IMG/VR virus record: IMGVR_UViG_3300008217_000125
Location: 1-20,422 of that record
DNA length: 20,422 nucleotides
Source: a virus
Reading direction: 5' to 3' (one strand)
The notes below the pieces were generated by a model. The model was not told where the DNA came from. It worked only from the letters and a program-made list of their open reading frames with translations, and did not search any database. The translations under genes were made by a program, and so were the position numbers. Below, piece by piece: positions 1,605-4,619 of the stretch. Position 1 is the first letter of the stretch. Each line of letters starts with the position of its first letter.

Positions 1605-2021
1605 ATGAGTAATACAACCAAACTAAAACCAGACGTTTTAAGCTCTATTTTTGAAGAATTAGCAAAAGGAGAGCAAAGTATAAAAGCTATATTAAAAGAT
1701 AGAAACATAACTTATGAAGCATTAAGAAAGTTATTAAACAAAAAGCCTAAAATTAGGGAAGAATACGATTTAGCAGTACAAGACGGAATAAGTCTGGCCC
1801 TTGATACGGCTGTTTTTAGAATAAAAGAAACAATAGAAGATTTAAAAAATCATCCTAATCAAAGGAGTAGTCTGGCCATATCTAACCTAGAAAAAGAAAT
1901 AAACAGCATGATTAAGTACAGAAGTTCAGCACTTTTAAGCAAGTATCAGCCTAAAAGTAGTCTAAAATTAGGCAATATTAATGATAATAAACCCCTTTTA
2001 GTTAAGTGGTTAAGCAAGTAA
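1605..2021 (+). CDS. terS: Probable terminase small subunit
   Basis: A 138-aa protein that by position and fold pattern is the likely small terminase, the DNA-recognition partner of the large terminase that starts packaging. I start it at ATG 1605 (MSNTTKLKPD); the longer frame from 1578 would run over the promoter repeats. Residues about 17-60 read as a helix-turn-helix module: a helix with EELAKGEQSIKAIL, then DRNITYEALRKLL, then KIREEYDLAV, as in many phage small terminases. The middle is a long helix suited to oligomer formation, and the C-terminus is basic. No Shine-Dalgarno is visible before the start. The assignment rests on pattern and synteny, not on a unique motif. Confidence 0.6.
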   Translation: MSNTTKLKPDVLSSIFEELAKGEQSIKAILKDRNITYEALRKLLNKKPKIREEYDLAVQDGISLALDTAVFRIKETIEDLKNHPNQRSSLAISNLEKEINSMIKYRSSALLSKYQPKSSLKLGNINDNKPLLVKWLSK

Positions 2022-2071
2022 AACATATTAAAAGATTAATAATATCAATGCTTTTAGTTTGTTTCTGCCCT

Positions 2072-2110
2072 ACCTTTGTAAACAAAGGTTGTGCTACAAC
2101 CTATATAGGT
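2072..2110. repeat. Chain of three overlapping palindromes
   Basis: Three perfect inverted repeats share their ends: ACCTTTGTAAACAAAGGT (2072-2089, 8-bp arms with 2 central bases), AGGTTGTGCTACAACCT (2086-2102, 7-bp arms with a 3-base loop) and ACCTATATAGGT (2099-2110, a perfect 12-bp palindrome). The shared blocks alternate ACCT, AGGT, ACCT, AGGT. As RNA, the middle hairpin excludes the two outer ones, so the element could switch between two folds. Confidence 0.9.
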
Positions 2111-2132
2111 AGATAAAAGAAAAAAAATAAAC

Positions 2133-2158
2133 TTAAACTAGAACCATGTTCAGTTTAG
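2133..2158 (+). other. Bulged hairpin in the leader
   Basis: Positions 2134-2144 pair with 2148-2157: TAAACT, a bulged A at 2140, then GAAC, against GTTCAGTTTA, with a three-base loop CAT. This gives ten Watson-Crick pairs, plus a T-G pair at 2133/2158. No T-run follows, so it is not a classical terminator. It lies 22 bases after the palindrome chain. Confidence 0.6.
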
Positions 2159-2168
2159 GTTCATATTA

Positions 2169-2261
2169 TTAGCGTAAAAAGTAGTACCGATAAATAAAGA
2201 TTATCAAACCTAATAGTAATGAACTGAAAAAACCAAAAGGTACGCCGTCAAATAAAGCCAT
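2169..2261 (-). CDS. Possible 30-aa membrane mini-protein
   Basis: A complete frame on the minus strand from ATG 2261 to TAA 2169-2171. After a short polar start (MALFDGVPFGFF), residues about 10-23 are a hydrophobic segment (SSLLLGLIIFIY), followed by a short tail with two arginines (RYYFLR), as expected for a small single-span protein with a positive inside end. There is no good Shine-Dalgarno before the start (GCGGTGGT). It lies antisense to the late-operon leader, so it may be a chance frame. I list it because this phage carries several genuine mini membrane proteins. Confidence 0.25.
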   Translation of the reverse strand: MALFDGVPFGFFSSLLLGLIIFIYRYYFLR

Positions 2262-2299
2262 ACCACCGCAGGAAATTGGCGTACGTAATAGACGTTATT

Positions 2300-2305
2300 A
2301 GGAGG
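2300..2305 (+). promoter_or_regulatory. Strong Shine-Dalgarno (AGGAGG) far from its start
   Basis: AGGAGG at 2300-2305 is as strong as any ribosome binding site in the window, yet the next ATG in any useful frame is at 2331, 25 bases downstream. No ATG, GTG or TTG stands at the usual 5-10 base distance, and an in-frame TAA (2322-2324) rules out an upstream extension of the 2331 gene. The TAG at 2299-2301 overlapping it mirrors the TAG/AGGAGG junction at 19286-19292. Confidence 0.55.
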
Positions 2306-2330
2306 TAAACACAACCAACTTTAAAAAACC

Positions 2331-2534
2331 ATGTTTGAATTTTTAGACAACGGCCACATTTCGGCCATAGTTCTGATCTCAGAGAAAAACCAGTCTGTGA
2401 GTATTCATTTCTCAGGATTCGACAGCTATGAACAAGCCAAGAAGTTCAGTACGTTCATGGTGGAAGAACTAGGAATTAAAACCTACGATCAATTTAACTC
2501 CTTGCAAATCCCACCAAATACAACTATTCATTAG
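2331..2534 (+). CDS. 67-aa hypothetical protein
   Basis: First gene after the structured leader. ATG 2331 is the earliest possible start because of the in-frame stop at 2322-2324. The product has an alternating beta-like N-terminal half (HISAIVLISEKNQSVSIHF) followed by a helix (YEQAKKFSTFMVEELG) and a polar tail. This could be a compact alpha/beta fold, but no family is recognised. It ends one base before the ATG of the SET-domain gene, so the two are probably translated together. Function unknown. Confidence 0.65.
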   Translation: MFEFLDNGHISAIVLISEKNQSVSIHFSGFDSYEQAKKFSTFMVEELGIKTYDQFNSLQIPPNTTIH

Positions 2535-2880: not shown

Positions 2881-4149
2881 ATGCCTGAAGTCGTTATTCC
2901 CTACAAGCCAAGGAAACTTCAAAAATTTTTGCACAATCAAATCCTTAAGCACCGATTTAATGTTATTATTGCACATAGGAGGTCTGGCAAAACGGTGTTG
3001 TGCATCAATCATCTGATTAGAGCCGCCCTGATTAATACGCAGCCAAATCCCAGGTACGCCTTTATCGCACCCACTTTTAAACAAGGCAAAAGTACGGCAT
3101 GGGACTATATTAAAAATTATTGCAGAAATATTCCTTATATAAAATTCAACGAATCAGAACTGAGGTGTGATTTTCCTAACGGTTCTAGGATTACTATACT
3201 AGGTGCCGAAAATGACCAAGCGTTAAGGGGTATCTTTTTAGATGGATGTGTCTTTGATGAAACCCAGAACATTAGTCCAGTCCTTTTCCCAGAAATTATC
3301 CGACCTTCTTTAGCTGATCGAAAAGGTTGGTGCATTTTTATCGGTACACCCAAAGGTCAGAATTATTTTTATAAACTTCACAAACAGGCTTTGGAGGAAG
3401 AAGATTGGTGGACAGGCACTTACAAAGCCTCCCAGACTAAAGTGCTTGATGATAAGGAATTGTCAGCCGCACAAAGGGTAATGTCGAAAGATTTGTACGA
3501 ACAGGAGTTTGAATGTTCATTTCAGGCAGCTATTACTGGCTCTTACTATGGAAAAATCATTGAGGAGCTTGAAAAATCTAATCGCATTACCGATGTTCCT
3601 TACGATGAAAATTTAAAAACTGAAACCTGGTGGGACTTGGGTCTTAAAGATTCTACTGCTATTTGGTTTGTTCAGCGTTTGCAAAGCCAACTAAGGATCA
3701 TAGACTACTATGAAAATTCTGGAGAAGGTCTGGATTTTTATGCTGACGTTCTGGATTCAAAACCTTATAAATATGATAGACATATAGCTCCGCATGATAT
3801 AAAAGTAAGAGAATTAGGAGCTTATGGTAAATCAAGGTTGGAAACAGCTTTGGAATTGGGTATATCATTTGATATAGCTCCGAAACTTTCAATCGAAGAT
3901 GGAATTGAAATGGTGCGGAAAACTCTACCCCAATGCTATTTCGACCAAAACAAAACTTATCAGGGAATTGAAGCGTTGAAGGCTTACCAAAAAAAATGGG
4001 ATGAAAGAAATCAGTGCTTCAAGAACCGACCAACGCATAACTTTGCTTCTCATCCATCTGACGCTTTTAGAACAGGGTGTACTTTTTTCGGAGGAAAAGT
4101 TAGCGACTGGAAAAAGAAAATTAAAGTTGATACAAGTTACGTAGTTTAA
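2881..4149 (+). CDS. terL: Terminase large subunit (packaging ATPase and nuclease)
   Basis: A 422-aa protein with the two-domain layout of phage packaging motors. ATPase domain: an adenine-binding region with RKLQKFLH near residues 11-18, Walker A at residues 31-38 (AHRRSGKT), Walker B at about 120-127 (LDGCVFDE, with the catalytic Glu) and the coupling motif GTPKG at 155-159. RNase H-like nuclease domain: acidic residues in WWDLG (D252), APHD (D306) and HPSDAFR (D394). It translocates DNA into the prohead through the portal and cuts it. The start is forced by a TAA directly before the ATG; a G6 run at 2864-2869 may serve as a weak ribosome binding site. Confidence 0.95.
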   Translation: MPEVVIPYKPRKLQKFLHNQILKHRFNVIIAHRRSGKTVLCINHLIRAALINTQPNPRYAFIAPTFKQGKSTAWDYIKNYCRNIPYIKFNESELRCDFPNGSRITILGAENDQALRGIFLDGCVFDETQNISPVLFPEIIRPSLADRKGWCIFIGTPKGQNYFYKLHKQALEEEDWWTGTYKASQTKVLDDKELSAAQRVMSKDLYEQEFECSFQAAITGSYYGKIIEELEKSNRITDVPYDENLKTETWWDLGLKDSTAIWFVQRLQSQLRIIDYYENSGEGLDFYADVLDSKPYKYDRHIAPHDIKVRELGAYGKSRLETALELGISFDIAPKLSIEDGIEMVRKTLPQCYFDQNKTYQGIEALKAYQKKWDERNQCFKNRPTHNFASHPSDAFRTGCTFFGGKVSDWKKKIKVDTSYVV

Positions 4150-4150
4150 T

Positions 4151-4160
4151 CATGGCAAAA
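4151..4160. repeat. Direct repeat flanking the XF1762-like gene, copy 1
   Basis: CATGGCAAAA at the start of the XF1762-like gene is identical to 4620-4629 at the start of the portal gene. Recombination between the two would remove the inserted gene and leave terL joined cleanly to the portal. Confidence 0.7.
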
Positions 4161-4619
4161 GATTTAAAAATTATACCACTATCATTAAAAGAAGCTAATG
4201 AATTTGTAATAAAATATCATCGTCATAACAAAAAATGTCAAGGCCATAAATTTAGTTTAGGAGCTGAATATAAAGGTAAATTAGTTGGTGTTGTAATTGT
4301 AGGCAGACCAGTTGCTAGAAAATTAGATAATAAATTAACTTTAGAAATAAATCGTAATTGTGTTTTGGAAGATGCTCCAAAAGGGACTTGTAGTTTTTTA
4401 TATGCAAAAGCTATGCAAGTGTGGCAAAGTATGGGTGGTAAAAAAATTATTACATATACTTTATCCACTGAAAGTGGATCAAGTTTAAAAGCTGTAAATT
4501 TTAATAAAGAAACAATGGTACAGATTTTTAAAAAAAATACTGGTTGGACAACAAGAGCCAATAGAATTTGGCAACAAGTTCAATCCATTCCCAGAATAAG
4601 ATGGGGAAAAGAATTATAA
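4152..4619 (+). CDS. XF1762-family protein (GNAT-like, function unknown)
   Basis: A 155-aa protein with the signature of the XF1762 family known from phages and mobile elements: HRHNKKCQGHKFSLGA (residues 23-38), VGVVIVGRPVARKLD (45-59), LEINRNCV (64-71), a Tyr-containing helix (LYAKAMQVW), then ITYTLSTESGSSLKAV (100-115) and GWTTR near the C-terminus. The fold is related to GNAT acetyltransferases, but no reaction has been assigned to it as far as I know. It is inserted between the large terminase and the portal, which are usually neighbours, has no visible Shine-Dalgarno, and looks more AT-rich than terL. The flanking repeat CATGGCAAAA marks it as a possible cargo gene. Confidence 0.8.
   Translation: MAKDLKIIPLSLKEANEFVIKYHRHNKKCQGHKFSLGAEYKGKLVGVVIVGRPVARKLDNKLTLEINRNCVLEDAPKGTCSFLYAKAMQVWQSMGGKKIITYTLSTESGSSLKAVNFNKETMVQIFKKNTGWTTRANRIWQQVQSIPRIRWGKEL

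Follow-up and report, generated by a model that had tools for sequence, protein, structure and literature searches.

In lambdoid phages the late genes are preceded by one promoter, pR', with a leader of ~200 nt. The activator-dependent late promoters of phages Mu (C protein) and P2 (Ogr), of which each phage has several, carry a dyad upstream of the -10 box, and in lambda, HK97, P22 and Sf6 the cos or pac regions lie beside the terminase genes. Here we describe a chain of palindromes between the terS and terL genes of a virus contig, IMG/VR record IMGVR_UViG_3300008217_000125, whose full 20,422 nt are called the window below. The TerL encoded here shares 59% identity with its counterpart in Pelagibacter phage HTVC106P, and the Pfam matches of the portal and capsid proteins are to SU10-type families; on these sequence comparisons the contig is related to HTVC106P, in the pelagiphage group, and its relatives are ocean viruses related to SAR11 phages. 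We see about an even chance that the palindromes belong to a single-copy promoter/operator, one that would drive ORF67, terL and the structural genes, a late-type control, in the HTVC106P-related pelagiphages. This arrangement would be like that of pR' in having a single candidate promoter and some 200 nt of leader ahead of late genes, but its place is between terS and terL instead of in front of lysis genes, and no terminator was found in the window leader. As far as the literature on pelagiphage cos sites, promoters, packaging and intergenic regions could be searched, this region is not described.

The features of the locus are collected in Table 1. A first, sequence-only reading had placed the chain before the packaging operon, which holds for ORF67, the SET-domain gene and terL, all downstream, but not for terS, which lies upstream on the same strand. 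The SET-domain gene is missing from two of the relatives (L012 and L013). Between terL and the portal gene, at 4152-4619, is a gene for a DNA modification protein of the Mom type, matching PHROG 1384 (E 3e-33) and Pfam Mom. Around the divergence in gene direction, TTGTCAATAGC occurs in three exact copies on the + strand (1093-1103, 1118-1128 and 1578-1588); with one mismatch allowed there are four matches, a number reached by 0 of 100 shuffles, and these copies are likely early promoter or operator repeats.

Table 1. Coordinates of genes, palindromes and motifs at the terS-terL locus of the window.
Feature	Position	Strand	Remarks
terS, Sf6-like terminase small subunit (138 aa)	1605..2021	+	Sf6 terminase-small-like; PHROG 1482 'terminase small subunit'; upstream border
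Non-coding gap, terS to ORF67	2022..2330	+	309 nt; length kept among relatives
Enclosing pair CTACC / GGTAG	2070..2112	.	arms 2070-2074 / 2108-2112
Palindrome 1	2072-2089	.	ACCTTTGT-AA-ACAAAGGT; 8-bp arms, 2-nt centre; operator candidate
TAAACA	2079..2084	+	putative weak -35-like hexamer, by reading; 4/6 consensus bases; 17 nt before TATATA
Palindrome 2	2086-2102	.	AGGTTGT-GCT-ACAACCT; 7-bp arms, 3-nt centre; hairpin potential limited to window's clade
Palindrome 3	2099-2110	.	ACCTATATAGGT; true 12-nt palindrome, 6-bp arms; intact in window alone
TATATA	2102..2107	+	putative -10 element; at the place of relatives' TATA(A/G)
GATAA-N7-TTATC inverted repeat	2189..2205	.	GATAAATAAAGATTATC; kept in most groups of relatives; gives the gap's strongest structural signal
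GTACGCC / GGCGTAC	2240..2284	+	7-bp inverted repeat, arms 2240-2246 / 2278-2284; most relatives have GGGGGTTTTAAAA...ATACC here
Conserved motif	2290..2313	+	AGACGTTATTAGGAGGTAAACACA; family consensus tAAtATTgATAGgAGGTATA-ACA; ~42 nt before ORF67
ORF67, small protein of unknown function	2331..2534	+	ahead of terL in every relative as well as in HTVC010P-type phages
SET-domain protein, 108 aa	2536-2862		between ORF67 and terL; Pfam E 1.8e-8
terL, terminase large subunit	2881..4149	+	

Relatives were gathered through TerL and TerS, giving 156 distinct loci with terS and an ORF67 homologue, some of them near-duplicates. The gap measures 254-344 nt in 152 of these 156 (308 nt, at the same place, in HTVC106P, accession MN698244), and its sequences have largely diverged into ~ten groups that align poorly with one another; one set of gap groups rests on a single alignment. 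The longest ORF inside the gaps has a median of 29.5 aa, against 27 aa in shuffled sequence, and the gap is therefore a non-coding element kept at constant length. The window does have a 36-aa frame (2006-2116) that spans the palindromes; a conserved coding sequence, which the first reading held would refute it, is ruled out by indels of 1-4 nt among relatives at this very stretch, together with the shuffled-like ORF lengths. A tRNA was also looked for, and none was found.

The chain itself agrees with its first description in coordinates and arms, in the 4 nt by which neighbouring palindromes overlap (AGGT, 2086-2089; ACCT, 2099-2102) and in the enclosing CTACC/GGTAG pair. Only the third palindrome is perfect, however; in the first two, short centres separate the inverted arms. 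The chain had further been called far from random, which is true of the sharing of ends but not of mere clustering: at least three palindromes inside 45 nt are common (72 of 200 random 20-kb sequences), whereas an end-sharing chain of three appears in 3 of 400 random sequences of window length, one with an arm sum of at least 21 in 1 of 400 such 20-kb sequences, and a chain of three in 5 of 20000 random sequences as long as the gap, all figures being post hoc, for a pattern picked after it had been noticed. Given that choice, the chain is still more than chance, because end-sharing triples, and those as strong as this one, are so rare. Mostly functionless symmetry in AT-rich DNA is accordingly an improbable explanation: the full chain does occur in the window alone, with palindrome 3 lost in every relative, but against this stand the rarity of end-sharing chains and the coincidence of palindrome 1 with a dyad conserved in 49 relatives, described below. 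Palindrome 1 has no second copy in the window, even with 3 mismatches allowed, and it is therefore not part of a multi-site operator in this contig.

Motifs were searched for in 82 diverged gaps and then, at fixed width, in clusters 1-7; because the seed was chosen by eye and the relatives have a common ancestry, the scores make the evidence look stronger than it is. The diverged gaps contain ordered motifs at fixed spacing, among them a TTGC-containing motif ~250 nt before ORF67, which the fixed-width search sharpened to A(G/C)TTG(C/T)(C/G)(C/T)-N8-TATA(A/G) in clusters 2-6 and part of 7. This site is found in 49 diverged relatives, at the place of the palindromes and mostly at -222 to -254 nt from ORF67. 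Seven of 12 records have exactly one match per genome, in the gap (a reversed-pattern control gave fewer), and the other five, the window included, have no exact match. In the window's clade the same letters occur with a spacer 1 nt shorter (AAGTTGCTTTGCAATCTATAAG in the relatives, AAGGTTGTGCTACAACCTATATAGG in the window), and it is due to this spacing change that the window scores poorly against the motif. Group 10/11, to which HTVC106P belongs, has a differing arrangement, with TTGCACACA and a later TATA.

A dyad scan of the 49 relatives, all outside the window's clade, over 40 nt to either side of the motif placed the two best centres next to each other and directly upstream of it, with 54% and 45% complementary cells where the mean over all centres is 28% (sd 7.6%). 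The letters of this dyad, CAA-N-CTTT...AAAGTTG, fall at the place of palindrome 1, which is the form that the conserved dyad takes in the window. Its paired letters are mostly fixed, not covarying, as expected of a dyad bound by protein, whereas covariation is expected of an RNA stem. The TATATA of palindrome 3 likewise falls at the place of the TATA(A/G) box of the relatives (TATAAG or TATAGT there). Four functions were first proposed for the chain: transcription attenuator, protein operator, recombination or resolution site, and pac signal. Of these, that of a protein operator gains support from this conserved DNA motif with its dyad centred just upstream.

The promoter/operator could work as follows. 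TATATA would serve as the -10 box for a transcription start near 2114, and a dimeric protein, of the phage or the host, may bind palindrome 1, centred ~33 bp before the start and over the weak -35, to switch late transcription on or off; a poor -35 hexamer, its position covered by a dyad, suggests that an activator or a repressor would be in control. Palindrome 2 would be an elaboration of the window's clade and palindrome 3 one of the window itself. The ~215-nt leader would then carry three more conserved motifs. Such a promoter is favoured by a conserved motif whose place is fixed within non-coding sequence ahead of an operon. Consensus sigma-70 hexamers are absent, the best matches to a generic matrix do not cluster here, and a promoter scan lists none at 2079-2107; because only the TATA-like box is clear, this would be at most an activator-dependent or non-consensus promoter. 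As a counterpoint to any separate promoter, transcription from the upstream terS could be read through into terL.

Letters such as TTGCCCTGACACTATATAAG hint at a T7-like promoter, for which the phage would have to encode a single-subunit RNA polymerase (PF00940); a search for this gene gave no match in 8 records, a weak result since the control genome was also silent. Skadi, of the neighbouring HTVC010P type, is reported to have no RNA polymerase of its own and to use that of the host (PMC10504331).

Alternatively, the palindromes might act in RNA, as an attenuator or two-state switch within a terS-terL transcript, which we consider unlikely. The segment 2060-2125 does fold well (-16.8 kcal/mol, z -3.5), fold z is negative in all ten members of the clade (-1.1 to -5.4), and in the clade alignment (n = 10) one pair of the middle hairpin is compensated (7 CG, 2 UA, 1 GC), scoring above all shuffles. 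But at this place fold z is near zero in clusters 2-7, with averages of -0.9 to +0.3 for five multi-member groups, and the fold profile of the family has no peak at the palindromes, its one clear signal being at GATAA-N7-TTATC (mean z ~-1.3, 100-160 nt before ORF67). RNA folding potential at the palindromes is thus confined to the window's own clade, for which a peculiar hairpin is possible. Even there, 4 of the 7 middle-hairpin pairs depart by unpaired cells only; one pair is GC or GU in all sequences but one, and another is broken in 8 of 10. The first reading took arms changing without compensation as grounds for its refutation, and this is seen in part, most pairs of the middle hairpin either breaking or staying fixed and one being compensated.

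The best fold of the window sets palindrome 2 within the CTACC/GGTAG stem and does not oppose palindromes 1 and 3 to palindrome 2. The two-state switch in particular is not supported, because palindrome 3 is confined to the window, the 3' arm of the enclosing stem (GGTAG) changes uncompensated in 5 of 10 clade members, and a single middle pair is compensated. A scan of the + strand of the gap revealed no intrinsic terminator, and Rfam gave nothing above threshold, only sub-threshold chance matches. A consensus RNA structure was also sought and rejected: RNAalifold on the first alignment reached -3.9 kcal/mol, and folds made per cluster had no common structure.

The best-conserved inverted repeat of the gap is GATAA-N7-TTATC (family motif CTGATAA-N7-TTATCAG, ~150 nt before ORF67), which makes a stronger structural candidate than the palindromes first noted. 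At times it occurs as two in tandem with differing flanks (in L188, TTTCCGATAACGATTAATTATCGGAA followed by TTACTATTGATAG...TTATCGTTAGTAA). Some 90 nt before ORF67 most relatives have GGGGGTTTTAAAA..ATACC, a G-run/C-run element that is kept in the closest relative, L268 (as GGGGCGGTTTTAAATGCAACCCCCC, 1037-1072), and swapped for GTACGCC/GGCGTAC in the window; judged from the two sequences, this is a module exchange within the gap.

Such motifs bear on the main rival of the promoter/operator, a packaging-initiation site (pac or cos) at which TerS would bind the repeats and dyads of the gap, the palindromes providing half-sites, and TerL would cut nearby. We regard this as possible, if somewhat unlikely. 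The gap sits between terS and terL, is single-copy in each genome, keeps its length even where sequence diverges, and holds several motifs whose order and spacing are fixed, among them GATAA-N7-TTATC, which is symmetric, and the G-run/C-run element. However, the gap is internal in long contigs (31-38 kb), and the ends of contigs are distributed more or less uniformly across the 0-2000 nt upstream of terL, with those close to the gap beginning at differing places. A fixed genome end (cos) at the gap would make contig ends pile up there; the lack of a pile-up argues weakly against cos and not against a headful pac site, which would leave none; metagenome contig ends are an indirect and weak proxy for genome ends.

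Perhaps the entire terS-terL gap, with four ordered motifs common to a very abundant pelagiphage group, serves as late promoter and packaging-initiation site in one, so that late transcription would be tied to packaging through TerS bound at the dyads, but we hold this to be unlikely too. A replication origin or other DNA-processing site, with initiator-binding dyads and an AT-rich stretch, is very improbable. The gap is indeed AT-rich and non-coding with several dyads, and some relatives have letters like a DnaA box (HTVC106P TGTGGATAA, HTVC010P TTATCCACA), but these are not kept in other groups, and the skew change falls outside the gap, near 1500-1600, at the turn in gene direction.

Returning to the promoter/operator, a single length-conserved element with named motifs is a short stretch to aim at with primer extension, TerS-binding assays and reporters. 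As in the promoters served by Mu C and P2 Ogr, a dyad stands at a constant distance from a TATA-like -10 and the -35 is slight or absent, but the sequence of the dyad and its distance (here centred at ~-33) differ, and in contrast to the several late promoters of Mu and P2, exact site matches here are single-copy. The gap resembles the cos/pac regions of lambda, HK97, P22 and Sf6 as a non-coding region adjoining terminase genes with several ordered motifs; it differs in its position between terS and terL, and in that no fixed genome end was detected from contig ends. Palindromes like TATATATACATGG and GGGACTCGAGGACTCCC also precede the ORF67 homologue in HTVC010P-type phages (L049-L051, L056 and L057), with no adjoining terS annotated. 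Phages of this type have no terS annotated directly before the stretch, and inspection by eye did not show the A(G/C)TTG...TATA site there, but they share with our locus a non-coding stretch directly before a short ORF (ending ..IH) and terL, with TATATATAC and C-run elements.
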